Source: Arthrobacter globiformis (GTDB lineage Bacteria > Actinomycetota > Actinomycetes > Actinomycetales > Micrococcaceae). From it: a DNA stretch of 64,000 nt. Under the pieces are notes generated by a model. That model made no database searches and was not told where the DNA came from. It saw only the letters and a list, made by a program, of their open reading frames with translations. Position 1 is the first letter of the stretch; each line of letters opens with the position of its first letter. A program made the translations under genes and the position numbers. Below are positions 1 through 10,259 of the stretch, piece by piece. The DNA lies in assembly GCF_003261175.1 (NCBI RefSeq), contig NZ_QLNP01000042.1, positions 19,202 to 83,201 on the forward strand, given 5' to 3'.

Positions 1-23
1 CCCGGCTTTCGCAGGAGCGCTGA
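1..23 (+). CDS. 3' end of an upstream gene, cut by window edge
   Basis: In the frame of position 3 the first bases read R-L-S-Q-E-R and stop at a TGA at 21-23, four bases before the GTG of the next gene. This spacing fits the tightly packed eCIS operon that follows, so the bases are probably the end of another operon member. Nothing can be said about its product. A six-codon frame could also be chance. Confidence 0.3.
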
Positions 24-26
24 ACC

Positions 27-2981
27 GTGCGGTGGCCCTGGCAACGCGAGCGCTCCGAAGCCGGTCCCCGCACGTCCGTGTCCGAGCCGGCACCGCCACC
101 GGCAGTACAGCCGCTTCCGGTACCGCCCGCCGGCTGGGCCTTCCTGCCTCCGCTCCAGCACACGATCCGCCCCATGGAATTGGCACACGGTCCCGAACGC
201 TTTGCCGGCTCGCTCGCGGCATGGACTAACCCCTCCTTTACCGGAGCTATGAGTCATCTGGTCACGGCAGACGCACCGCCGGGGGTGATAGACGTCGACG
301 GCGGCGGCACGGCAGGCGGGGAAGCCTATAGTTCGATGCCGCCGGAGATGACTCTGCTCGTTCCCCCCGCGCGTTCACGCCCGGGGGGCGGAATTACGAC
401 GGCGGTGCAGCGCACCACGGCGGCTACGGACGCCCCAGCCGGGGCTGATGCGGCTGCCCCCGCGGCCCCGGCACCCGCACCGGTCGACCTTGACGTGTCC
501 AACGCTGAACTGCGTCCCGCCCTGCGGGCGGAGTCCGATGCCGGGCCGGCACCGGAATTGGCCGTCGACGACGGCGGGCAGCTGGCAGGGGAATGGCCCG
601 TCCCAGATCAACCGGCGGCATTGGTGCAGAGGGCTACTGCCCCCACCCAGGTCCCGCCTGCGCACGGCGTCCAAGTTCGGGGCGGCGACACCAAAGACCC
701 CGTGCTTCCGCTGGCGGTTACGGAGGCGGCCATTCCCGGCGCAGAATTGGCAGCCGAACAACGGATTGCCGACTGGGACATACCCGCATCTCTCAGCACC
801 GGCTGGGACATCGCGCCTCCGCTCCGGCCAAACTCCGGGGACAGCGCCTCGGATGGAAGTGCCACATACGTGTCCCTGCCTGTCCCGCCTGCCGTCCAAC
901 GCGCCGCCGAGGACAGTCCCACCGAACGGACTTCGCTCCCGGTACCGCTGCCGCCTGTGTATCCGAGCCGGCTAGGACTGGGGCGACCCCTGTCGTTCTC
1001 GCCGCCTGAATCCTCTGACATGCCCACGCCCCCGGCTCGATTCGGTCAGGATTCCGTCTTGCCGGTGCAGCGGACGCTCGGTCCGGCAGAGGCAGCACCT
1101 GTCCAGCGGAGGCTGGACCCGGGGGAGTCCGCTGCAGGTTCGGGCGGGGGTTCAGCCGCTGAAGCACAGGTGACACAGGACGTCCGTCCGTCTGAAGCAA
1201 GGAATTCGCGTGAGAGCCAGTCATCAGAAAGTGGCATCGGTGGCTTTGACGACGGTGCGGACCCCAGCGCCGGCGTCGGCGCAGTGGCCCACGCAGTTGC
1301 CGTGACCCCGGCCCAAACTGGCGAGGAAGTCTCCCGCCCTGACGAAAATACTGCGACCGAGGCCCCTGGGATACTGCAACGGTCGCAGCAGGCGCCCGGA
1401 GAAGAGTCGTCGGCCCAGCTGATCTCGGACGCCTGGCCTCATTCGTCGGTGTCTCCGTCAGGAGAACCCGGGTTGGAGCGTCTTCCCTTCCAGCGCTCTT
1501 CCTCGGATGGCGCTGCTGACCTTCCTGTCGTGTCCCGGCTGACGTCTCATGGACAGGCGCAACACAACAGCCAGGACGGTGGCCCGCAGACGGGCGGCTC
1601 AGACACAATCGGCCTGGAGGCAGGCGGATCAGACCACAAGGAAGCGGCTGCCGCACTGCTCCAGCCTGACGACCCGCTCGGTGACGTGCGCGACGGCTCA
1701 CCACGTCCGCTGGCAAGCCCGGCGGAAACGGGGAGCATCTCCTTGTCCGCTCCTGACGAGGCGCCCGCCCTGAGCCGCAGTCTTCTCGGCGAAGCCGGGT
1801 CTTCCGGGCAGCCCACGCCAAGCGGTGAACCATCCGGATTAGGGATTTCTCTTCAAAGATTTGACTACGGGCAGACGGATCCAGCGCCGTTGCAGGCCGG
1901 CACAGGCCTGCCGGGGCCGGTCGCTGGTCACGGCACTCCTCAAGCACCAGCCGGAGCTTCACAGCCCCCCGGTGCATGGGTCGCACCGATGCCCGCGGTG
2001 GCGTCGGCCGGGACGGTTCAGCGTGCCAAGCAGGCAACTGGCGCTGCGCGCACGATGTCCGCCGCTCGCGTTTCCAGGCCACTGGCCAGTGGTTTGACGG
2101 CCGCAGTCTGGCAGCGCATGGCAACAATCCCTGCGGCCGTTCAGAAGCCTGCGGCGCCGACCGTTCCGCTCGCCCCACCGGGGCATACCGCCCCGAGCGC
2201 TCTTACGGGTCACCGCGATGATGCGACGGATGGCTCAACCGCCGGCAGTGCCATGGCGGACGGCCGTGTCAGTGAGCCGGAACCGATGCCCGTTGCCTCC
2301 CCCCACGACTCGGACACTGGCTACCAGCCCGGGGACAGTGTTCTTGCTGACCTTGGGCGCACCGAAGTGCCGCCGTTGGGGGCCTTGAGGGAAATGCCTG
2401 GGCCAGGTGACGCCGTCGGGAGTGTTATCCAGCGAATCCAGGCCCTGCCTGTTCAGTCCCTTCAGCGCACGGTGGACCTCACCGGAGCCGTTCCGGCCCG
2501 CGCAGGCCACTCACCTTCGCCGCATTATCTTCGCGGAACCTCCGGCGACGGCGTCGCGGATCCACCAACCCAGGACCCTGTCGTTCTGGCGCTCGCCGCC
2601 CCGGTTCCGCGAACAGGCGGGCCGCCGGGTCATGCGGACGGTTCCAGCGACAATGTCCAGCGGCTCAGTGTTCCCGAGACGCCCGAAGCCGAGCCCCCGA
2701 CTGCAACCGCGCAGGTAGCCACGCCGCCTGGGTTTTTCGCTCCCTCTTCCCCCGCGGAGGCCGGCAACCAAGCGCCTCCGGGAGACACCGCGCTCCCCGA
2801 ACAGGCAGCCCCTACGGCAACCGAACGGCCGACGGCGGGAGCGCCCGGTCCGCTGGGAGCCGCAACCCCGGACCAGCTCGAGGAGTTGGCAAAACGGCTG
2901 GCCGGGCCCCTGATCCGCCGCATCAAAGCCGAGATGCTGTTAGACCGCGAGCGCCGCGGACTGCGCACCGATTCGAATTGA
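27..2981 (+). CDS. eCIS-associated disordered protein with repeated [V/L/I]QR motifs
   Basis: A 984-residue protein very rich in Pro, Ala, Gly, Ser and acidic residues, with no signal peptide, membrane helix or enzyme motif. Fourteen hydrophobic-Gln-Arg/Lys triplets (V/L/I/F/W-Q-R/K) occur from about residue 127 to 877 in otherwise low-complexity sequence. The N-terminal ~80 residues (WAFLPPLQ, then PSFTGAMSHLVTADAP) and the C-terminal ~40 residues (EELAKRLAGPLIRRIKAEM, a charged amphipathic helix) look ordered. The gene sits 7 bases upstream of the tube gene in the eCIS operon. A GTG start at 27 follows AGGAG at 13-17. Function unknown. By position it could be a tape-measure-like, lumen-filling or scaffold protein, but it is not coiled-coil as classical tape measures are. 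That role is inference. Confidence 0.75.
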   Translation: MRWPWQRERSEAGPRTSVSEPAPPPAVQPLPVPPAGWAFLPPLQHTIRPMELAHGPERFAGSLAAWTNPSFTGAMSHLVTADAPPGVIDVDGGGTAGGEAYSSMPPEMTLLVPPARSRPGGGITTAVQRTTAATDAPAGADAAAPAAPAPAPVDLDVSNAELRPALRAESDAGPAPELAVDDGGQLAGEWPVPDQPAALVQRATAPTQVPPAHGVQVRGGDTKDPVLPLAVTEAAIPGAELAAEQRIADWDIPASLSTGWDIAPPLRPNSGDSASDGSATYVSLPVPPAVQRAAEDSPTERTSLPVPLPPVYPSRLGLGRPLSFSPPESSDMPTPPARFGQDSVLPVQRTLGPAEAAPVQRRLDPGESAAGSGGGSAAEAQVTQDVRPSEARNSRESQSSESGIGGFDDGADPSAGVGAVAHAVAVTPAQTGEEVSRPDENTATEAPGILQRSQQAPGEESSAQLISDAWPHSSVSPSGEPGLERLPFQRSSSDGAADLPVVSRLTSHGQAQHNSQDGGPQTGGSDTIGLEAGGSDHKEAAAALLQPDDPLGDVRDGSPRPLASPAETGSISLSAPDEAPALSRSLLGEAGSSGQPTPSGEPSGLGISLQRFDYGQTDPAPLQAGTGLPGPVAGHGTPQAPAGASQPPGAWVAPMPAVASAGTVQRAKQATGAARTMSAARVSRPLASGLTAAVWQRMATIPAAVQKPAAPTVPLAPPGHTAPSALTGHRDDATDGSTAGSAMADGRVSEPEPMPVASPHDSDTGYQPGDSVLADLGRTEVPPLGALREMPGPGDAVGSVIQRIQALPVQSLQRTVDLTGAVPARAGHSPSPHYLRGTSGDGVADPPTQDPVVLALAAPVPRTGGPPGHADGSSDNVQRLSVPETPEAEPPTATAQVATPPGFFAPSSPAEAGNQAPPGDTALPEQAAPTATERPTAGAPGPLGAATPDQLEELAKRLAGPLIRRIKAEMLLDRERRGLRTDSN

Positions 2982-2988
2982 GGAAGAC

Positions 2989-3423
2989 ATGCTGGAGGAC
3001 GTCGCCACTGCTGTCAGCGTCCAATACGTCGTCGCCCTGGACAACGCGGACCTGGGGACCTTTTCCACGTGCGAGGGCCTGGGCTGCGAAGTGGTCATGG
3101 AAACCCGGGAAGAGGGCGGTAACAACTCGTTTATCTGGCAGCTCCCCACCCGTCTCAAGTATCCGAACATCACCCTGACCCGGCCTTTGGGGAAGGACAC
3201 AGAGAAGATCGCCAAGTGGTTCGCAGGCATGGCGACCGGATACACCCGCTGCACCGGCGTCATCCAGGCAATGACCGCCAACGGCACGAAAATTGCCGGG
3301 TGGGAACTCTACGACGTCGTTCCCGTCCGGTGGAAGGGTCCCTCCTTCAACCCCGACCAGCCGAAAGTCATTATGGAAACCCTGGAAATCGCCCACCACG
3401 GATTCGTCGCGAAGCTTGGCTGA
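2989..3423 (+). CDS. eCIS inner tube protein (phage T4 gp19-like family)
   Basis: A 144-residue protein of the conserved phage-tail-tube family found in contractile injection systems (Afp1/Pvc1-like). Supporting patterns are the N-terminal FSTCEGLGCEVVMETREEGG stretch, the PNITLTRPL segment, and the W-E-L-Y-D-V-V-P-V-R-W near the C-terminus, which recur in this family at this length. Subunits stack as hexameric rings to form the inner tube through which effectors travel. The ATG at 2989 follows AGGAAG at 2981-2986. The gene lies between the QR-motif protein and the LysM adaptor. This position suggests a baseplate-proximal tube paralogue, with the main tube and sheath genes upstream of the window. 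The paralogue assignment is inference. Confidence 0.88.
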   Translation: MLEDVATAVSVQYVVALDNADLGTFSTCEGLGCEVVMETREEGGNNSFIWQLPTRLKYPNITLTRPLGKDTEKIAKWFAGMATGYTRCTGVIQAMTANGTKIAGWELYDVVPVRWKGPSFNPDQPKVIMETLEIAHHGFVAKLG

Positions 3424-3437
3424 CGAAGGAGCATGAC

Positions 3438-4283
3438 GTGACCACAGTTGCAGGCCCGGCGCCAGCCAGGGGACCCGCCGGAGGCACTAGTCCGGCGGCG
3501 GCTGCCGCTGCCGGAGGCTCGGCAGGACGTGGCGGAGAAAAGGCGCTTGAACTTTCGCACGCGTACCTGGAGCTCTTCGAGCCGTCCATTGACGGATCAC
3601 TGGACAAACCGGGCCCGCGATTCGGTCAGATTGATTTCCAGTTCAACCCCAAAGAACTCACCATGGGCAAGTCAGCCTCCTGGGCCAGGCAAACGGCCAA
3701 GGGCAACGGAAAAGCGGGCCCGCCGCAGTACAAGGGCCCGATGCCCTCCAAGCTGTCCCTGGAGATGTTCTTTGACGCCTCCGGGAAGCAGGACGACGCG
3801 GTGGTCCAGCGTGTCAAGGCGCTGTTCGACTGCTGTACACCCACCGAAGCTTCGCTGAAGCAGCACAAGGGTTCACCACCGTGGGTGATGTTCCGGTGGG
3901 GCGAACTCACCGGCTTCCATGCGTATATATCCAGTGTGCAGGTCAAATACACGCTCTTCACCGCCGCCGGGCTGCCGGTCCGGGCCACCTGTACTGTCAC
4001 CCTGGAGGAAATTGCCGGCCCGCCGCCCAAGCAGAACCCGAGTTCCGGCGGCGTAGTGCCACGGCGCGTCCACGTGCTGGTGGAGGGGGAAAGCTTGGCG
4101 GGCATTGCCTACCGCGAATACGGCGATCCATCCCTGTGGCGGGCGGTCGCAGCGGCGAACGGGATCGACAATCCGATGCACCTCCGCCCCGGCAGTTCAG
4201 TGCTGCTGCCGGCCGTGGATGAGCTAACGTCCGGGACGCCGGCGAACGGCGGCCGGATGCGGGAGGTGGTCCGTGGCGCATAG
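3438..4283 (+). CDS. eCIS LysM-domain baseplate adaptor (Afp7/gp53-like)
   Basis: A 281-residue protein. A low-complexity Ala/Gly/Pro N-terminus (about 1-35) is followed by a tube-like domain (about 40-200, with FGQIDFQFNPKELTMGKSASW typical of this family) and a C-terminal LysM-like module (about 211-258: VLVEGESLAGIAYREYGDP, WRAVAAANGID, LRPGSSVLLP). In Afp, PVC and T4-type machines the equivalent joins the tube to the spike hub. Here LysM is a structural module, not evidence of peptidoglycan binding. I chose the GTG at 3438 because GAAGGAG lies 7 bases upstream. The reading frame stays open further 5' but overlaps the tube gene. The 3' end overlaps the hub gene by 11 bases. Confidence 0.85.
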   Translation: MTTVAGPAPARGPAGGTSPAAAAAAGGSAGRGGEKALELSHAYLELFEPSIDGSLDKPGPRFGQIDFQFNPKELTMGKSASWARQTAKGNGKAGPPQYKGPMPSKLSLEMFFDASGKQDDAVVQRVKALFDCCTPTEASLKQHKGSPPWVMFRWGELTGFHAYISSVQVKYTLFTAAGLPVRATCTVTLEEIAGPPPKQNPSSGGVVPRRVHVLVEGESLAGIAYREYGDPSLWRAVAAANGIDNPMHLRPGSSVLLPAVDELTSGTPANGGRMREVVRGA

Positions 4284-6093
4284 CGAGGAGTTCAGCAACA
4301 TGCTGCTGGTGGAGGTGGCCGGCAGGCCGCTTCCGCCGGAGATTGCCGCACGGCTTGTGGCCGGTTATGTCGATGACAGCAGCAACGTCCCGGACCTCTT
4401 CCTGCTCCGGTTCACCGATGAATTTTCGACCGTACTGGAGAAGGGCGGCTTCAGCATTGGTGCACCCGTGAAACTGTCCGTACAGCAGAGCGGCCCTGGT
4501 GGTCCTGTGCCGCTGCTGGACGGTGAAGTGACTGCACTGGAGACCGAGATGGACCACGAAGGCCTCCACACGATCGTCCGGGGCCTGGACCACTCCCACC
4601 GACTGTTCCGGGGGCGGCGCGTTGAAGCGTACCTGCAGAGCACGGCCGCAGACATCGTCCGGCGGGTGGCCCAGCGCGCGGGAATCAAGGCGGGCACGAT
4701 CGCCGGGAAGGGCCCTGTCCTGCAACACGTGGCACAGGACGGCATCAGCGACTGGGACTTCTTGCACCGGCTCGCCGTCGAATCCGGAGTGGTCCTTTCC
4801 GTGTCCGGCGGTGAACTGCACTTCACGGCGTCGACGGACTCGGGCACGGCGCCGGCCGGTACGGCCGGCGCAAAGGAGGACCCGCTGGTCCTTGAGCGGG
4901 GCATGAACCTGGTGGCATTGCGCGGTACAGTCACCTCCGCGGACCAGGTACCGGATGTGGAGGTGCGCGGCTGGGATGTCGCCGCAAAGAAGGCCATCGT
5001 GGCCGTTGCACAGGCGCAGACGCGCAGTGCCAAACTGCCGGAGGTGGACCCGGCCGCCCTCGCGAAGAAGTTCGGAAGCCCCCGGTACGTTGCTCCTCCC
5101 ACGGCCTTTGAGCAGGCTGCACAGTGCGACGCTGCCGCAGCCTCCATCGCCTCACGCCTCGGCGGCGCCTTTGCGGAACTGGAAGGCCTCGCCCGCGGCA
5201 ACCCCAAGCTGCGGGCAGGCACCGCCGTTGTGCTCAAGGGGGCCGGCAAACCCTTCGACGGGCAATATACGCTCAGCTCATCGCGCCACGAGTTCAGCCC
5301 CGATACCGGCTACCTCACAACCTTTACCGTCAGCCACGAATCCGAGCGCTCTCTCTACGGGGTAGCCGCCGGCGGAAACAGCCGCGGGGCCGTGCCGGCG
5401 GTGGTCAATGCCGTCGTTACGGCGGCAAAGGACCCGGAGAACCGAGGCAGGGTCAAGGTGAAGTTCCCGGTGCTGTCCGACAACTACGAAAGCTGGTGGG
5501 CGCGCACAGTCCAGGCCGGGGCGGGGGCCAGCCGGGGCGCCGTCGTCCTCCCTGAAGTGGGGGACGAGGTTCTGGTGGCCTTCGGCCACGGCAGCTTCCA
5601 GCAGCCATTCGTGCTCGGCGGCCTGTACAACGGCCAGGACCAGCCGGACAAACCCTGGGCAGACCACGTGGGCTCGACTGACGGCGCCGTTACACGGCGT
5701 GCCTTCGTCTCGCGCACCGGAATGCTCGTCGAGTTCCTCGAAACCCCCGACGGCGAACAGGTCACGGTGAGTACGAGCGGCGGCAAGCAGAAGATCTCAC
5801 TCGTCCAGAAACCGGACGCGGCAGTCGAGATCCTCTCTGAAGGGCCGGTAAACGTCACAGCCAGGAAGGACGTTGCCGTAACGACGTCGACGGGCCAGGT
5901 GACCATCAAAGGCAAGAAAGTGTCGGTGGAAGCCCTCTCGGAACTTGAGCTGAAGGGCGCGACGGTGAAGATCTCCGGCAGTGCGTCGGCCGAACTGAAA
6001 GCTCCGGGCGTCAAGGTGGCGGGGGACGCTACGGCGGAACTCTCCGGCGGGGCAACAACCACCGTCAAGGGCGGCTTGGTCCGCATCAACTGA
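4273..6093 (+). CDS. eCIS spike/hub protein (VgrG-like, gp27-gp5 type)
   Basis: A 606-residue hub-spike protein. The N-terminal ~360 residues form a gp27/late-control-D-like hub (LTSRHEFSPDTGY-type end around 330-350). Residues about 375-460 are a gp5-like OB-fold (DPENRGRVKVKFP, WWARTVQAGAG, PEVGDEVLVAFGHG, PFVLGGLYNG). The last ~100 residues are short alternating V/K/G/A repeats expected of the trimeric beta-helix spike (EGPVNVTARKDVAVTTS). It would sit at the tip of the tube and be driven out on contraction. There is no C-terminal toxin extension. GTG at 4273 overlaps the LysM gene, which indicates translational coupling. Confidence 0.9.
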   Translation: MAHSEEFSNMLLVEVAGRPLPPEIAARLVAGYVDDSSNVPDLFLLRFTDEFSTVLEKGGFSIGAPVKLSVQQSGPGGPVPLLDGEVTALETEMDHEGLHTIVRGLDHSHRLFRGRRVEAYLQSTAADIVRRVAQRAGIKAGTIAGKGPVLQHVAQDGISDWDFLHRLAVESGVVLSVSGGELHFTASTDSGTAPAGTAGAKEDPLVLERGMNLVALRGTVTSADQVPDVEVRGWDVAAKKAIVAVAQAQTRSAKLPEVDPAALAKKFGSPRYVAPPTAFEQAAQCDAAAASIASRLGGAFAELEGLARGNPKLRAGTAVVLKGAGKPFDGQYTLSSSRHEFSPDTGYLTTFTVSHESERSLYGVAAGGNSRGAVPAVVNAVVTAAKDPENRGRVKVKFPVLSDNYESWWARTVQAGAGASRGAVVLPEVGDEVLVAFGHGSFQQPFVLGGLYNGQDQPDKPWADHVGSTDGAVTRRAFVSRTGMLVEFLETPDGEQVTVSTSGGKQKISLVQKPDAAVEILSEGPVNVTARKDVAVTTSTGQVTIKGKKVSVEALSELELKGATVKISGSASAELKAPGVKVAGDATAELSGGATTTVKGGLVRIN

Positions 6094-6132: not shown

Positions 6133-6546
6133 GTGGGGCAGGAGTTCATAGGCGCCGGGTGGGCTTTTCCCCTGCGGACGGACCGGACCGGCAGCATTGC
6201 TTTGGTCCGGGATCAGCGGGAAATCGAGGAGAGCATCCATCTCATCCTGGCAACGTCGCCGGGAGAGCGGCCGATGCGGCCGGAGTTCGGCTGCTCTGTC
6301 CATGACTACGTCTTCGCGCCCGCCAATGCGGCAACGGCGGGGGACATCGCCTACGCGGTGCGCGTGGCCCTGGACCGTTGGGAGCCCCGGATCACGCTGG
6401 AAAATGTGGCAGTCAACTTCGACGGCGTGGATGCCGGCCTGCTCCTCATCGATGTGCAGTACACGATCAGGGGCACCAACGACCCCCGGAACCTGGTCTT
6501 TCCGTTCTATGTCATTCCGCGTAACGGCGAGGAGGCCGCTTACTAA
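6133..6546 (+). CDS. eCIS baseplate wedge protein (gp25/GPW family)
   Basis: A 137-residue gp25-like protein, the standard length. The signature segments are IEESIHLILATSPGERPMRP, PEFGCSVHDYVFAP and the conserved RVALDRWEPRI. Family members form the baseplate wedge core and nucleate sheath assembly. GTG at 6133 has a strong GAGGAGG site at 6119-6125. The stop codon overlaps the ATG of the next gene (TAATG), so the two are translationally coupled. Confidence 0.92.
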   Translation: MGQEFIGAGWAFPLRTDRTGSIALVRDQREIEESIHLILATSPGERPMRPEFGCSVHDYVFAPANAATAGDIAYAVRVALDRWEPRITLENVAVNFDGVDAGLLLIDVQYTIRGTNDPRNLVFPFYVIPRNGEEAAY

Positions 6547-8495
6547 TGCTCCCTTCACCCAACCTCGATGACCGCCGTTTCCAGGACCTCGTGGACGATG
6601 CGAAACGCCTGGTGGCGCACTACTGCCCCGAATGGACAGATCACAACGTCTCCGACCCCGGCGTAACCCTCATCGAGACCTTCGCCTTCATGGTGGACGA
6701 GCTGTTTTACCGGCTGAACCGGGTGCCCGACCGCCTGTACGTCGCCTTCCTCGAATTGCTCGGCGTCACGCTCCATCCGCCCACGGCCGCCTCGGTCGAG
6801 CTCTTCATGAGGCTGTCTGCGCCGCAGCCCGACGTTGTCGTTATTCCGAAGGGGACAGAGGCCTCTACCCGGCGCACCGAGGAAGAGGAAGCAGTCGTTT
6901 TTGCTACGACCCGCGAGCTGACCGTGCCACCGCGCCGCCTGGCGCATGTGCTCACGCAAGCGGACGGCGCAGCGGCGGTGCCCCGGACTGAAGCGCTGCA
7001 CGGAGACGGCAGCTTTGCCTGCTTCGGCGCCCCGCCAGTGCCCGGAGACGCGTTGTTGCTGGGTTTGAACGATGCCGCACCCTCATGTGCGGTTGTGGTG
7101 CGGTTTGAGTGCGAGGTGAGGGGCGTAGGCGTCAACCCGAACAACCCGCCACTGGTCTGGGAGGCCTGGGACGGCGACTCGTGGGTGCCAAGTGATCTGG
7201 ACAGCGACGGGACGGGCGGCCTGAACCGTCCCGGGGACGTGGTGATTCATCTGCCGCACCGCCATGCGGCGTCCGTGCAGGGAGGAACCCGGGCGGGATG
7301 GCTGAGATGCCGTGTGGTGGAGCCGCTTCCGGGCTATCCGTCCTACAGCGCTTCCCCTATCGTGCATTCCGCCGGCGCGTTTACGATTGGCGGCTCCGTT
7401 CCCGCCGTCCACGCCGAGGCAATCTACGACGAGGTGGTCGGGATGTCTGAAGGCGTTCCGGGGCAGTCCTTCGAACTGGGCCGGCACCCTGTGCTGCCCG
7501 GCGGCGACGACTTTATTGTTGAGGTCGCTGCCGGCTCCGGCTGGGGGACCTGGACCGAGGTGGACTCCTTTGCCGGATCGGATCCCGACGACTGCGTGGT
7601 GGTCCTCGACCGGGCCTCAGGCGTGGTGCATTTTCCGCCGGCGGTGCGGGAGCCGGACGGGTCCCTCCGCAGCTACGGCGCCGTGCCACCCGCAGGAAGT
7701 CCTATTCGCATTCCGCGCTACCGCACCGGTGGCGGTCCGAAGGGAAACGTTGCTGCCCGGGCGCTCTCCGTGCTGCGCTCCTCCATCCCCTTTGTCAACA
7801 GCGTGGAAAACCGCCGCGGCGCCCATGGCGGCGTCGCGGGGGAGACCATCGAGCAGGCCAAGGAACGCGGACCCCTCGCGCTGCGGACCCGGGACCGGGC
7901 CATCACCGCCGAGGACTACGAACAGCTCGCGAAGCGTGCCGCCCCGGACATCGCCCGGGTCCGGTGCATTCCGGCCGACGCTGCAGAGGAGGCAGGTGGC
8001 GTAAGAATCCTGGTGGTGCCGGCAGCCGTTCCGGACATGGACAATCGTCTGACGTTCCGGGATTTGGTGCCCGACGCCGAAATACTGGCCAAGGTTGCAG
8101 ACTACTTGGACGAACGCCGTCCCGTTGGTGCACGTCTGATGGTCGAACCGCCGTTTTACCGTGGTGTGACCGTGGTGGCGCAGTTGACCGCCCGTCCCCG
8201 GGTTTCCCCTGAACGCTTGCGTGCGGACGCCCTGCGGGCCCTCTACAGCTACTTCGACCCGATCCGGGGAGGGCCCGACGGCGAGGGCTGGCCGTTCGGG
8301 CGGCCTGTCCACGCTGGTGAGGTTCATGCTGTCCTCCAGAGCCTTGCCGGTACCGAGATCGTTGATGAGGTGTACGTGTTTGCCGCCGATCCCCTGACAG
8401 GGAAGCGTGGAGAGCCGCAGCAGCGAATCGAAGTAAACCGGAATGCCCTGGTCTTTTCGTTTGACCACAGGGTCCGCGTTTCGGAAGGAGCCTGA
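6546..8495 (+). CDS. eCIS baseplate assembly protein (gp6/baseplate J-like, Afp11 type)
   Basis: A 649-residue putative baseplate assembly protein. The N-terminus (PNLDDRRFQDLVDDAKRLV, then CPEWTDHNVSDPGVTLIETF and DELFYRLNRVPDR) is the hallmark of the large wedge subunit family in contractile injection systems. The C-terminal half has the baseplate-J-like segment (LALRTRDRAITAEDYEQLA, with AAPDIARVRCIP). It would build the wedge around the hub together with the gp25-like and tail-protein-I-like neighbours. ATG at 6546 overlaps the previous stop. The 3' end is one base from the ATG of the next gene. Confidence 0.9.
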   Translation: MLPSPNLDDRRFQDLVDDAKRLVAHYCPEWTDHNVSDPGVTLIETFAFMVDELFYRLNRVPDRLYVAFLELLGVTLHPPTAASVELFMRLSAPQPDVVVIPKGTEASTRRTEEEEAVVFATTRELTVPPRRLAHVLTQADGAAAVPRTEALHGDGSFACFGAPPVPGDALLLGLNDAAPSCAVVVRFECEVRGVGVNPNNPPLVWEAWDGDSWVPSDLDSDGTGGLNRPGDVVIHLPHRHAASVQGGTRAGWLRCRVVEPLPGYPSYSASPIVHSAGAFTIGGSVPAVHAEAIYDEVVGMSEGVPGQSFELGRHPVLPGGDDFIVEVAAGSGWGTWTEVDSFAGSDPDDCVVVLDRASGVVHFPPAVREPDGSLRSYGAVPPAGSPIRIPRYRTGGGPKGNVAARALSVLRSSIPFVNSVENRRGAHGGVAGETIEQAKERGPLALRTRDRAITAEDYEQLAKRAAPDIARVRCIPADAAEEAGGVRILVVPAAVPDMDNRLTFRDLVPDAEILAKVADYLDERRPVGARLMVEPPFYRGVTVVAQLTARPRVSPERLRADALRALYSYFDPIRGGPDGEGWPFGRPVHAGEVHAVLQSLAGTEIVDEVYVFAADPLTGKRGEPQQRIEVNRNALVFSFDHRVRVSEGA

Positions 8496-8496
8496 G

Positions 8497-9063
8497 ATGC
8501 GGGGCATGGTGCCCGGGCTGGGCAGCGCGGTGCCGCTGGCCTCCCGTCTTCCGGCGGTACTGCAGGAAGACGCCTTCCTGCAGCGCTTTCTGCTGGCTTT
8601 CGACGATGCACTCGCTCCGGTATTCACCACGCTGGACGGGCTGGCATGTTATCTGGATCCACGGCTGGCGCCCGAGGACTTCCTCGACTGGCTGGCCGAC
8701 TGGGTGGGGGTCAGGGTTCATGATTCCTGGTCCACGGGCCAGCGGCGGGACGTTGTCGCCCATGCAGCAGAAATCCATCGGCGCCGCGGAACGGTCCAGG
8801 GTTTGGCGGATGCCGTCCGGCTGGCCGTCGGCGGAGTCCGGGACGTCGTCATTGAGGACAGCGGCGGTGCAGGCTGGTCGCAGACGCCCGGGGCAGACCT
8901 GCCGGGCCAGGCCGCAGCGAAGCTGCACGTAAAGGTTTACGCCGACGCCGCCAAGGACGTCAGCGTGCCCCGGCTGGAGCGCATCATCAGTTCTGTGAAG
9001 CCGGCCCACGTTCCCCACACCGTTGACGTGCTTTCATCGGCCAGTTCCTTCGAGGACGACTAG
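8497..9063 (+). CDS. eCIS tail protein I-like baseplate protein (Afp12 type)
   Basis: A 188-residue phage tail protein of the P2 gpI-like family used in eCIS baseplates. Characteristic segments are LQRFLLAFDDALAPVFTTLD, YLDPRLAPEDFLDWLADWVG and RRDVVAHAAEIHRRRGTVQG. I chose the ATG at 8497, which follows AAGGAG at 8485-8490 and begins just after the stop of the wedge gene. An in-frame upstream ATG at 8443 would overlap that gene. It ends with an acidic DD-stop, 8 bases before the zinc-ribbon gene. Confidence 0.87.
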   Translation: MRGMVPGLGSAVPLASRLPAVLQEDAFLQRFLLAFDDALAPVFTTLDGLACYLDPRLAPEDFLDWLADWVGVRVHDSWSTGQRRDVVAHAAEIHRRRGTVQGLADAVRLAVGGVRDVVIEDSGGAGWSQTPGADLPGQAAAKLHVKVYADAAKDVSVPRLERIISSVKPAHVPHTVDVLSSASSFEDD

Positions 9064-9071
9064 GAGGGGCA

Positions 9072-10259
9072 GTGTTGATCTGTGGCGAATGCAGTGCGCA
9101 CAACGCTGACGGGGAGAGCTTCTGCGGTTCTTGCGGAGCTTTTCTCGGCTGGCAGGCACAGGGGAAAGACAGCGGCGAGAAACTGTCCACCGCTGTCCCG
9201 CCGCGGGGGCCCCAGACTTCTCCGCAAACGGTGACGCTGCCTCAGATTCCTGTCCCTTCGGGTGGTGTAAAAAAGGATCATCCACAGGAACCGGCAAGCG
9301 GAAGAAGGCGAACCGCGGGCAGCGGCCCACCTGAGGTGGGCCGCACCGACCCGACCGCCCATGGACACGTCGCCAGCGGGCAGCGCACTGCCCCTGCTGG
9401 AGCTGCAACAACCGAGCCCGTGCCGACGATCGACGAGGAGCCGGCGCCCGTGCGGCCAGGCGAGCTGATCAGCAGTGCCCCGCCTAAGCGTCGCAGGTAC
9501 GAAGCGACTTCCCCTGACGCTGGCCCGCTGGTCTGCGCCACCTGCGGTACAGGAAACAAGGCCGGCGGAAATTTCTGCCGGCGGTGCGCTGCCAGCTTGC
9601 GGGCGCCGGAACCTGAGGCCGAGCCCGAACCGAGGCTATCGTGGTGGACACGGCTGTTTGGGCGCACGGGCCAAAAGGCGCTGCCGGCGGGCACGCGGCC
9701 ACTATCGAAGTCCCGGCATTTCCCGGTCCGGTTCGTAGCTTTCCTTGCGGTACTCGGGCTCGCCGGCGGCGTGGCGAGCGCCAACGGGGATTCGATCAGC
9801 GGTGCCCCGCAGAGAATCCTTGATGAGATTCTCTATAAGTCCAAGGAGGTTGCGGTCGTGGCGTCCGACCATATCGAGGGGCGAAACCCGGAGCTCGCGA
9901 CGGACGAATTTGTGAATACCTCCTGGGCAAGCGCTCTTAAGAAGGGTGCAGACGCCAACTTCCTCGAGGCGACATTCCAAGGGTCCCCTCGCCTCGTCTA
10001 CGTGTTCATCACGGCACCGTCCTCGGAACCGGCGCCCCTGGAACAGCGCCTTAGGGTCCTCATATCCGTGCACCACAAGGGCGCTAAGGAAGGTCTCTAT
10101 CAAAACTTCCCCGTCGTTGATGTGCCGACTGACAAGCAACGACACGGCTACTACGTGGGAACCGACAGCGTGGAGAAGGTTCGGCTGACCATCGTGGAGC
10201 CAACAAGCACCACTGCTAAAAGGGTGTCCATTGCAGGTGTTCAGTTCGCCGGCCGGTAG
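9072..10259 (+). CDS. Zinc-ribbon, single-pass membrane protein at the end of the eCIS operon
   Basis: A 395-residue protein. It has two CxxC-N10-CxxC zinc ribbons (Cys4/7/18/21 and Cys155/158/169/172) separated by a Pro-rich linker. A basic stretch and one predicted membrane helix follow (about 220-238, VRFVAFLAVLGLAGGVASA). The C-terminal domain of ~150 residues is beta-rich, of the discoidin/jelly-roll kind (NTSWASALKKGADANFLEAT, EPAPLEQRLRVLISVHHKG). With a cytoplasmic zinc-ribbon end the C-terminal domain would be extracytoplasmic. It is the last gene of the operon, and GTG 9072 or TTG 9075 lies just after TAGGAGGGG. It may tether or trigger the injection particle at the membrane, as reported for CisA of Streptomyces. 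That is analogy from layout, not proven homology. Confidence 0.8.
   Translation: MLICGECSAHNADGESFCGSCGAFLGWQAQGKDSGEKLSTAVPPRGPQTSPQTVTLPQIPVPSGGVKKDHPQEPASGRRRTAGSGPPEVGRTDPTAHGHVASGQRTAPAGAATTEPVPTIDEEPAPVRPGELISSAPPKRRRYEATSPDAGPLVCATCGTGNKAGGNFCRRCAASLRAPEPEAEPEPRLSWWTRLFGRTGQKALPAGTRPLSKSRHFPVRFVAFLAVLGLAGGVASANGDSISGAPQRILDEILYKSKEVAVVASDHIEGRNPELATDEFVNTSWASALKKGADANFLEATFQGSPRLVYVFITAPSSEPAPLEQRLRVLISVHHKGAKEGLYQNFPVVDVPTDKQRHGYYVGTDSVEKVRLTIVEPTSTTAKRVSIAGVQFAGR

Follow-up and report, generated by a model that had tools for sequence, protein, structure and literature searches.

What is the role of the large, low-complexity protein encoded just before the tube initiator in a contractile injection system of Arthrobacter globiformis, and what purpose is served by the short motif that recurs along its chain? 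The protein, here called X, is encoded at positions 27..2981 (forward strand, GTG start) of a 64,000-nucleotide stretch of contig NZ_QLNP01000042.1 (the window), in which the operon of an extracellular contractile injection system (eCIS) is already under way at the first position and X lies downstream of the sheath and tube genes, according to the reading of open reading frames (ORFs) and profile searches. X is a Pro/Ala-rich chain of 984 amino acids (aa), predicted to be disordered, which together with 66 complete homologues forms, as judged by sequence comparison, a family conserved among actinobacterial contractile injection systems of class-IId type (the class name is taken from PMC12237407 and was assigned by gene set and order). 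We propose that X may be an assembly scaffold occupying the slot of a tape measure, and that its hydrophobic-Gln-Arg tripeptides (phiQR) would be recognition sites, for docking or for cleavage, of a Sle2-type partner carrying the DUF4157 (eCIS_core) domain, rather than contacts to tube rings. We consider this proposal about equally likely to be right or wrong.

Spaced hydrophobic-Gln-Arg motifs had been reported in the initial annotation of this DNA, and the observation is confirmed, the window protein containing 14 phiQR and one VQK. All 14 positions originally listed are correct, 13 of them being phiQR and one (residue 705) VQK, and an additional WQR at residue 5 had been overlooked. From the composition of the protein, 0.49 phiQR are expected, and none of 200 shuffles reached 14. 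Homologues were collected by a scan of named genomes with a chaperone alignment, which yielded at least 80 loci, to which the window and 10 earlier loci were added. Of the 80 loci, L062 and L121 had no usable ORF and 22 more were excluded: 20 because the contig ended within the frame or tube2 gave no hit, and L067 and L123 because the automatic pick was another frame or a fragment. One of the 20, L082, is a comparatively long locus in which an X-like frame of 479 aa carries 5 phiQR, with no tube2 or VgrG hit; L039, a copy of L096, was dropped. The resulting 67 complete and distinct X proteins (the window protein and 66 others, 558-1368 aa) contain 808 phiQR versus 23.5 expected from shuffles, a 34-fold excess. 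Short X proteins are encoded in Streptomyces sp. NBC_01669 (558 aa) and Agromyces bauzanensis (715 aa). At least three phiQR are present in 66 of the 67, L074 having none; L038 has three, a count that 1.5% of shuffles reach. Several control tripeptides occur near expectation (observed/expected: phiRQ 16/24.3, phiNR 5/5.8, phiER 32/23.2, phiTR 67/61.0, non-phi QR 146/147.3), and the values for phiQE, phiQA and phiQP are 2/10.9, 29/61.4 and 38/56.2, respectively. The only other controls that are raised are phiQK (10/1.7) and QRphi (123/24.0), the latter overlapping the right flank of the motif.

The motif logo reads P-P-[V76 L13 I8 W3]-Q-R-[A/S/T/R], with proline (43%) or alanine (21%) as the most frequent residues before phi. 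Since VQR is encoded by 35 different codon triples among the homologues and the window gene contains no tandem repeat, the motif is not one copied DNA unit. In the S. coelicolor-type X (L188, 4040-4969), internal tandem repeats of ~90 bp and 399 bp carry VQR, so that repeat expansion can alter both the length of the chain and its number of motifs. The median spacing is 60 aa (719 spacings in the 59 homologues with at least six sites), and the mean coefficient of variation is 0.58 versus 0.88 for random placement, with 55 of the 59 homologues below random. The motifs, previously described as regular, are thus spread more evenly than by chance, but they have no fixed period; in particular, a period matching the tube rings was sought in these 59 homologues and none was found. 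Literature searches combining contractile injection with the VQR motif gave nothing relevant (base editing only), and SCO4249 as a search term led only to PhoP; locus-tag ranges would escape both searches. The combination of contractile injection, tape measure and intrinsically disordered returned phage work only, as judged by title.

The conservation of each window site was scored by alignment, as the number of four close relatives that have phiQR there (all sites on the forward strand). Six sites are present in all four: site 1, WQR5 (39..47); site 4, VQR290 (894..902); site 5, VQR347 (1065..1073); site 11, WQR695 (2109..2117); site 12, IQR801 (2427..2435); and site 13, LQR812 (2460..2468). 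Site 2, VQR127 (405..413), is found in three and site 14, VQR877 (2655..2663), in two. The other sites are site 3, VQR200 (624..632), site 6, VQR359 (1101..1109), site 7, LQR450 (1374..1382), site 8, FQR488 (1488..1496), site 9, LQR609 (1851..1859), and site 10, VQR664 (2016..2024), each scored 0/4; the phiQK variant VQK705 lies at 2139..2147. Across the alignments of five clades, identity is 35-77% in the motif columns versus 18-38% in the other columns of the middle region, and outside the motifs glutamine is conserved at 3-23%, arginine at 16-46% and valine at 14-38%. The motif columns thus persist where the surrounding chain has diverged, and on the evidence of these alignments phiQR is kept by selection on the protein. 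The idea of short conserved motifs on a disordered, multivalent chain is supported.

The same tripeptide is present in the eCIS_core (DUF4157) proteins encoded upstream of the sheath. Among 28 such proteins at X loci, chosen regardless of the motif, 26 carry phiQR after the core (the two others are those of L066 and L092). Both proteins thus bear phiQR in disordered sequence, whereas X has no DUF4157 domain (a Pfam search with the window protein gave no PF13699 match) except in three fused forms (L033, L236 and L288), in which eCIS_core is located in the C-terminal half of X and phiQR are few (4, 1 and 2). In 23 aligned small eCIS_core proteins, preselected for at least three phiQR, the HELTH motif, E179 and the last Q-R are all invariant, and the last Q-R remains at 90% or more on realignment of 22 Sle2-type proteins. 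The eCIS_core domain was found in 26/26 tested genomes drawn from the scanned loci and in all 94 Streptomyces genomes encoding a Cis1b-type tube protein (at least 71% identity), none being without it, versus 131 of 249 other Streptomyces; the 94 genomes were counted by their tube protein, X itself having been checked in part of them only. We rejected phiQR as a tag of the cargo in the position of Sle1, where it is scattered and often part of LQRxxGN, in a weak test whose automatic picks were partly on the wrong strand. In S. lividans, loss of Sle1/2 is described as causing no apparent structural defect (PMC13277306).

A natural loss of the motif would link the two proteins further. In a Kribbella clade of three genomes (G876, G905 and G920), X contains neither phiQR nor any QR dipeptide (3/3), and its open frame, in our reading, spans 749, 722 and 877 codons, respectively, the third count being from stop to stop. 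No eCIS_core match was obtained in G905 and G920, and G876 has one divergent frame of 706 codons with no phiQR. All three genomes retain sheath, tube, chaperone, X, tube initiator, LysM, VgrG, gp25 and baseplate J. In a midpoint-rooted tree of the chaperone, the clade (support 95/93) is nested among phiQR-bearing rows (fork 91/95). In G951, whose chaperone is the most similar to that of the clade (89% identity), X carries 11 phiQR, and a distantly encoded eCIS_core protein bears a single phiQR after the core. In five other Kribbella genomes, X contains 13-27 phiQR, and eCIS_core proteins with phiQR tails are present in every case (G936 and G930 were not used in this comparison, their picks being baseplate genes). 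The same order includes six more loci (G877a, G877b, G1129, G1174, G1061 and G947) with 7-13 phiQR, all in genomes with eCIS_core; G903 has no phiQR, in a genome without eCIS_core match. The eCIS locus is split in G876 (L240; ~10 kb) and G905 (L301/L230; ~5 kb), with other DNA between the tube initiator and the LysM hub.

Because this clade keeps the genes of the machine with no phiQR in X, the suggestion that the motifs contact successive tube rings is unsupported. Since the clade without phiQR in X is also without a phiQR-bearing DUF4157 protein, the motif probably has a DUF4157-linked role. The joint absence thus sustains the suggestion of docking or cleavage sites, of either kind, and does not distinguish between the two. 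The survival of X in genomes without eCIS_core match would indicate a second job that does not involve phiQR, and the slot of X suggests that this job is that of a scaffold or ruler. As a whole, the earlier interpretation is partly supported, for the disordered multivalent chain and the ruler or scaffold slot, and unsupported for the tube-ring contacts.

The slot is indeed that of a tape measure. The gene order is sheath, tube, probable tail assembly chaperone, DUF6760, X, tube initiator, hub and spike, as deduced from profile searches, so that X lies between chaperone genes and hub/baseplate genes; the chaperone call rests on a PHROG 508 match (E 7e-4) and on the ATGA overlap with DUF6760. 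The order parallels FI-FII-E-E'-T-U-D of phage P2, and in siphophages the tape-measure gene follows the chaperone ORFs. X resembles phage and eCIS tape measures (lambda H, P2 T, Afp14) in being encoded after overlapping chaperone ORFs and before the initiator or hub, and in being long, with a variable middle and conserved ends. In siphophages, chaperones coat the tape measure and are then replaced by tube proteins (PMC9022992). With a probable tail-assembly chaperone encoded on one side and the tube initiator on the other, the position of X fits a ruler or a scaffold, and upholds on this ground the length ruler proposed in the initial annotation.

The S. coelicolor particles have 60 tube layers and are 268 nm long, with identical lengths, and are described as having no tape-measure gene (PMC12237407); uniform length and the absence of such a gene are also mentioned for this type of system in PMC10066040, and a corresponding statement on S. 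lividans is found in PMC10286715. The structure models cover SCO4243-4248, 4252-4253 and 4260 (PMC12237407), SCO4248 being the homologue of the tube initiator (PMC10286715). In one genome (G778), an X of 1378 aa with 22 phiQR directly precedes a tube protein that is 100% identical to PDB 9gtp_a, 9GTP being a structure from PMC12237407; this X is presumably SCO4249. The 60 layers are the only tube length that we found, and the X of the matching genome has these 1378 aa. The ratio would be ~0.17 nm of tube per residue, if the 60 rings are spaced by 3.8 nm. In an analysis of indel balance, the Arthrobacter group alone (5 proteins) looks length-compensated.

AlphaFold2 (AF2), run with 24 sequences, predicts X with a mean confidence (predicted local distance difference test, pLDDT) of 44, with 813 of 984 residues below 50, the sole confident element being a C-terminal helix, residues 948-976 (2868..2954, forward strand; LEELAKRL..PLIRRIKAEMLLDRERRG), with 10-residue block means of 76-93. 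Both ends had been expected to be ordered, which holds for this helix; the first 90 residues (27..296, forward strand; MRWPWQR... GWAFLPPLQ...) are conserved, with an MRWPW-like start common to several relatives, yet their predicted order is low, with block means of only 46-64. An RER-type C-terminal ending is present in 67/67 kept homologues, the same ending having served as a filter for those drawn from the scan. In profile comparisons, the helix recurs in the X-slot proteins of two loci of the genus Kribbella (L236 and L237; E 7e-13) and, more weakly, in a protein encoded after the tube initiator in another locus class (E 3.4e-5, probability 72). A second motif, (R)LGLG(R/A)PL, is present here at 963..1004 (forward strand) in the GLGRP variant, as PSRLGLGRPLSFSP; GLGAP occurs in 21 of 39 representatives versus 0.4 in shuffles, and (R)LGLGAPL mostly once per X where present.

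In the reading that we prefer, X would be a long disordered chain, with the tube assembling around it or along it and the conserved C-terminal helix seated in the tube initiator or hub. The phiQR tripeptides would be recognised by the small, zinc-metallopeptidase-like eCIS_core protein of Sle2 type, which may bind along the chain of X, or cut it. Recognition by the Sle2-type protein, although the binding is putative, appears to be the simplest reading of the motif.

Several results weigh against this scheme. Unlike known tape measures, X is Pro/Ala-rich and predicted to be disordered, without a long alpha-helical or coiled-coil chain (the helix 948-976 is the only one predicted with confidence by AF2); membrane-like segments, usual in tape measures, are present in only 1 of the 67 X proteins (Kyte-Doolittle hydropathy >1.8), and no similarity to known families was detected with the window protein in Pfam, NCBIfam and PHROGs (0 families matched). 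In the proteomics text on the particles, the proteins of unknown function that are named as detected are SCO4242, SCO4256 and SCO4251, and SCO4249 is not among them (PMC10020575). The net length changes resemble random indels in four of five clades. Within the motif data, six of the window's 14 sites recur in none of the four close relatives and six in all four, so that motif number is kept more than place, and proline outside the motifs is also fairly conserved (33-55% in the five clade alignments). The joint loss in Kribbella, confined to a single clade amid phiQR-bearing rows, is one event only, on a midpoint-rooted tree of a 122-aa protein. In a wider sample of the phylum (25 loci, 6 of them without a readable core), 16 of 19 readable eCIS_core proteins have phiQR outside the core (47 versus 5.7 expected, 8 of the 47 within the LQRxxGN motif), and the tag may therefore be broader than the pair of X and Sle2. 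AF2 leaves the phiQR tail of a Sle2-type protein disordered and undocked.

In class-2 loci, the protein encoded after tube2 has no phiQR in 9/9 clear cases (G915b, G1087, G957, G1041, G1074, G1182, G1184, G964 and G1143; G1125, G1139 and G1155 were left out as doubtful), although these genomes carry eCIS_core, so that any link would be to the Sle2 type and not to eCIS_core in general. The class-2 proteins of L044, L045 and L041 have 1, 3 and 0 phiQR. In these three loci and in the Propionibacteriales class-2 loci among L289-L299, the tube initiator is not preceded by X but is followed by a low-complexity protein, which in some of them has a degenerate eCIS_core and an ERRG-type C-terminus; phiQR are few or absent in this class. 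X is, all in all, a tape-measure-slot protein that lacks the helical chain and the profile similarity of known tape measures and carries a partner-linked short motif.

Among the other explanations, the one that fares best is that X is an adaptor for cargo loading, or a storage chain for Sle2 and effectors outside the particle, length being set otherwise. It is consistent with the findings that the proteomics text does not name X, that phiQR track Sle2, that lengths drift in a neutral-like manner in four of five clades and that Sle1 abundance drops without Sle2 (PMC13277306), whereas the retention of X in the same slot in genomes without eCIS_core match argues against it and the uniform particle length would be left unexplained; we regard it as possible, if rather unlikely.

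A further explanation is that phiQR are cut sites, the Sle2 metallopeptidase cleaving X before the hydrophobic residue once the tube is built, so that the ruler would be destroyed and the lumen cleared for cargo. Its HExxH motif and downstream glutamate are invariant in the 23 aligned proteins, and the best match of a Sle2-type model in a fold search, although weak, is a metallopeptidase zymogen, proabylysin (4jiu, E 0.48, prob 0.75). The phi residue, mainly preceded by proline or alanine, is mostly V/L/I/W, a type of residue that many zincins prefer at P1'. Furthermore, motif and Sle2 are jointly absent in the Kribbella clade, X goes unnamed in the particle proteomics text, and the lumen appears mostly empty when SCO4256-4258 are deleted (PMC10066040). 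The last two points also weaken the earlier suggestion of a permanent lumen filler, as far as these published texts go. Cleavage is thus favoured by the invariant catalytic residues, by the hydrophobic first position and by the silence of the proteomics text, and docking by the low number of phiQR in the fused forms, which fit it better than cutting. Against cut sites also stand the retention of X in the Kribbella clade without motif or Sle2, and a published effector with this domain that inhibited growth independently of the metalloprotease motif (PMC11297309); we find the cut-site explanation unlikely. Its boldest version, in which the missing ruler of class IId would be a self-clearing tape measure, a disordered chain with cut sites for its own DUF4157 metallopeptidase that falls into pieces of ~60 residues and frees the lumen for cargo, seems to us improbable; if true, it would explain the uniform length, the lack of a tape measure seen in the particles and a widespread peptidase-like domain without known role.

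Alternatively, the phiQR could be a tag common to X and Sle2 that binds some other component (tube, tube initiator or chaperone), X being a multivalent binder of tube rings. This agrees with the presence of the motif in both proteins, with its more even than random spacing and with a report that Sle2 may interact with the tube initiator SlpT2 (PMC13277306), and is countered by the lack of a fixed period and by the three of three Kribbella genomes that have sheath, tube, chaperone, initiator and baseplate genes with no phiQR; on balance we judge it improbable. Finally, an origin of the motif as a by-product of composition or DNA repeat expansion, as the VQR-carrying tandem repeats of the S. coelicolor-type X could suggest, is hardly credible: the 34-fold excess over near-expected controls, the variety of codons, the lack of tandem repeats in the window gene and the conservation of the motif between diverging flanks refute it at the level of the whole family.

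X may also be compared with other large proteins of actinobacterial contractile injection systems. The tape-measure-related effectors Tme (S. davawensis) and Sle1 (S. lividans) are, like X, large and associated with DUF4157, either within the protein itself or in trans, and Tme, described as encoded immediately upstream of the baseplate genes, may share the slot of X. Unlike X, both are described as helical or coiled-coil cargo with a functional C-terminal domain, and the gene in the Sle1 position is here a separate one, upstream of the sheath (L002:12488-16417). With the disordered rulers YscP/FliK of type III secretion systems and flagella, the likeness is limited to the idea of a disordered ruler.

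The remainder of the locus corresponds to the S. coelicolor gene set and order of class-IId-type actinobacterial eCIS, with Pvc16_N, AAA, eCIS_core, sheath, two tubes, LysM hub, VgrG, gp25 and J. The closest named relatives among the scanned loci are Arthrobacter and Pseudarthrobacter, with 93-97% chaperone identity. Upstream of the window (L002) are encoded a Pvc16_N cap, an AAA protein, a 251-aa eCIS_core (DUF4157) protein and an adjoining 1309-aa protein, followed by sheath, tube, the 155-aa protein with the weak PHROG 508 'tail assembly chaperone' match, and DUF6760. The eCIS_core protein and its large neighbour agree in place and kind with the Sle2/Sle1 pair of S. lividans (PMC13277306), a likeness by position and description alone; the 1309-aa protein in the Sle1 position has a long hydrophobic stretch and no Pfam or NCBIfam match, and is a possible cargo. 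The 3' end of the DUF6760 gene, the second chaperone-like ORF (PF20546, E 1.1e-11), which overlaps the first by ATGA, occupies 1..23 of the window (full gene L002:19066-19224). Downstream of X, all on the forward strand, follow the Cis1b-type tube initiator (2989..3423; PF06841, E 2.5e-27; NCBIfam CIS5_fam, E 1.7e-15, below its cut-off), an Afp7-type hub/adaptor with LysM and weak GpU similarity (3450..4283; PF19266, E 7.8e-25; LysM and P2 GpU below cut-off), a VgrG-like spike (4273..6093; NF033848, E 4.4e-206), a gp25-like baseplate wedge (6133..6546; PF04965, E 3.8e-26), Baseplate J (6546..8495; PF04865, E 1.5e-22) and a Tail_P2_I baseplate protein (8443..9063; PF09684, E 2.5e-17). Directly after the baseplate genes, the region 9072-10259 encodes two zinc-ribbon-like stretches and a hydrophobic segment, a place and make-up as described for CisA/SCO4242 (PMC10020575). 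A short antisense ORF at the contig end (L002:2-301, reverse strand) contains repeated LQRDSPTG units.

X is thus a candidate for the tape measure that is absent from the published accounts of S. coelicolor-type syringes (PMC12237407, PMC10066040 and PMC10286715). DUF4157 is the marker domain of eCIS, and its role has been described as elusive or as still awaiting study (PMC8213781, PMC11297309); the phiQR motif, together with its natural loss in Kribbella, provides a peptide-level test for this role. If our reading is right, the motif would also give access to the way in which the barrel of these syringes is loaded or cleared.

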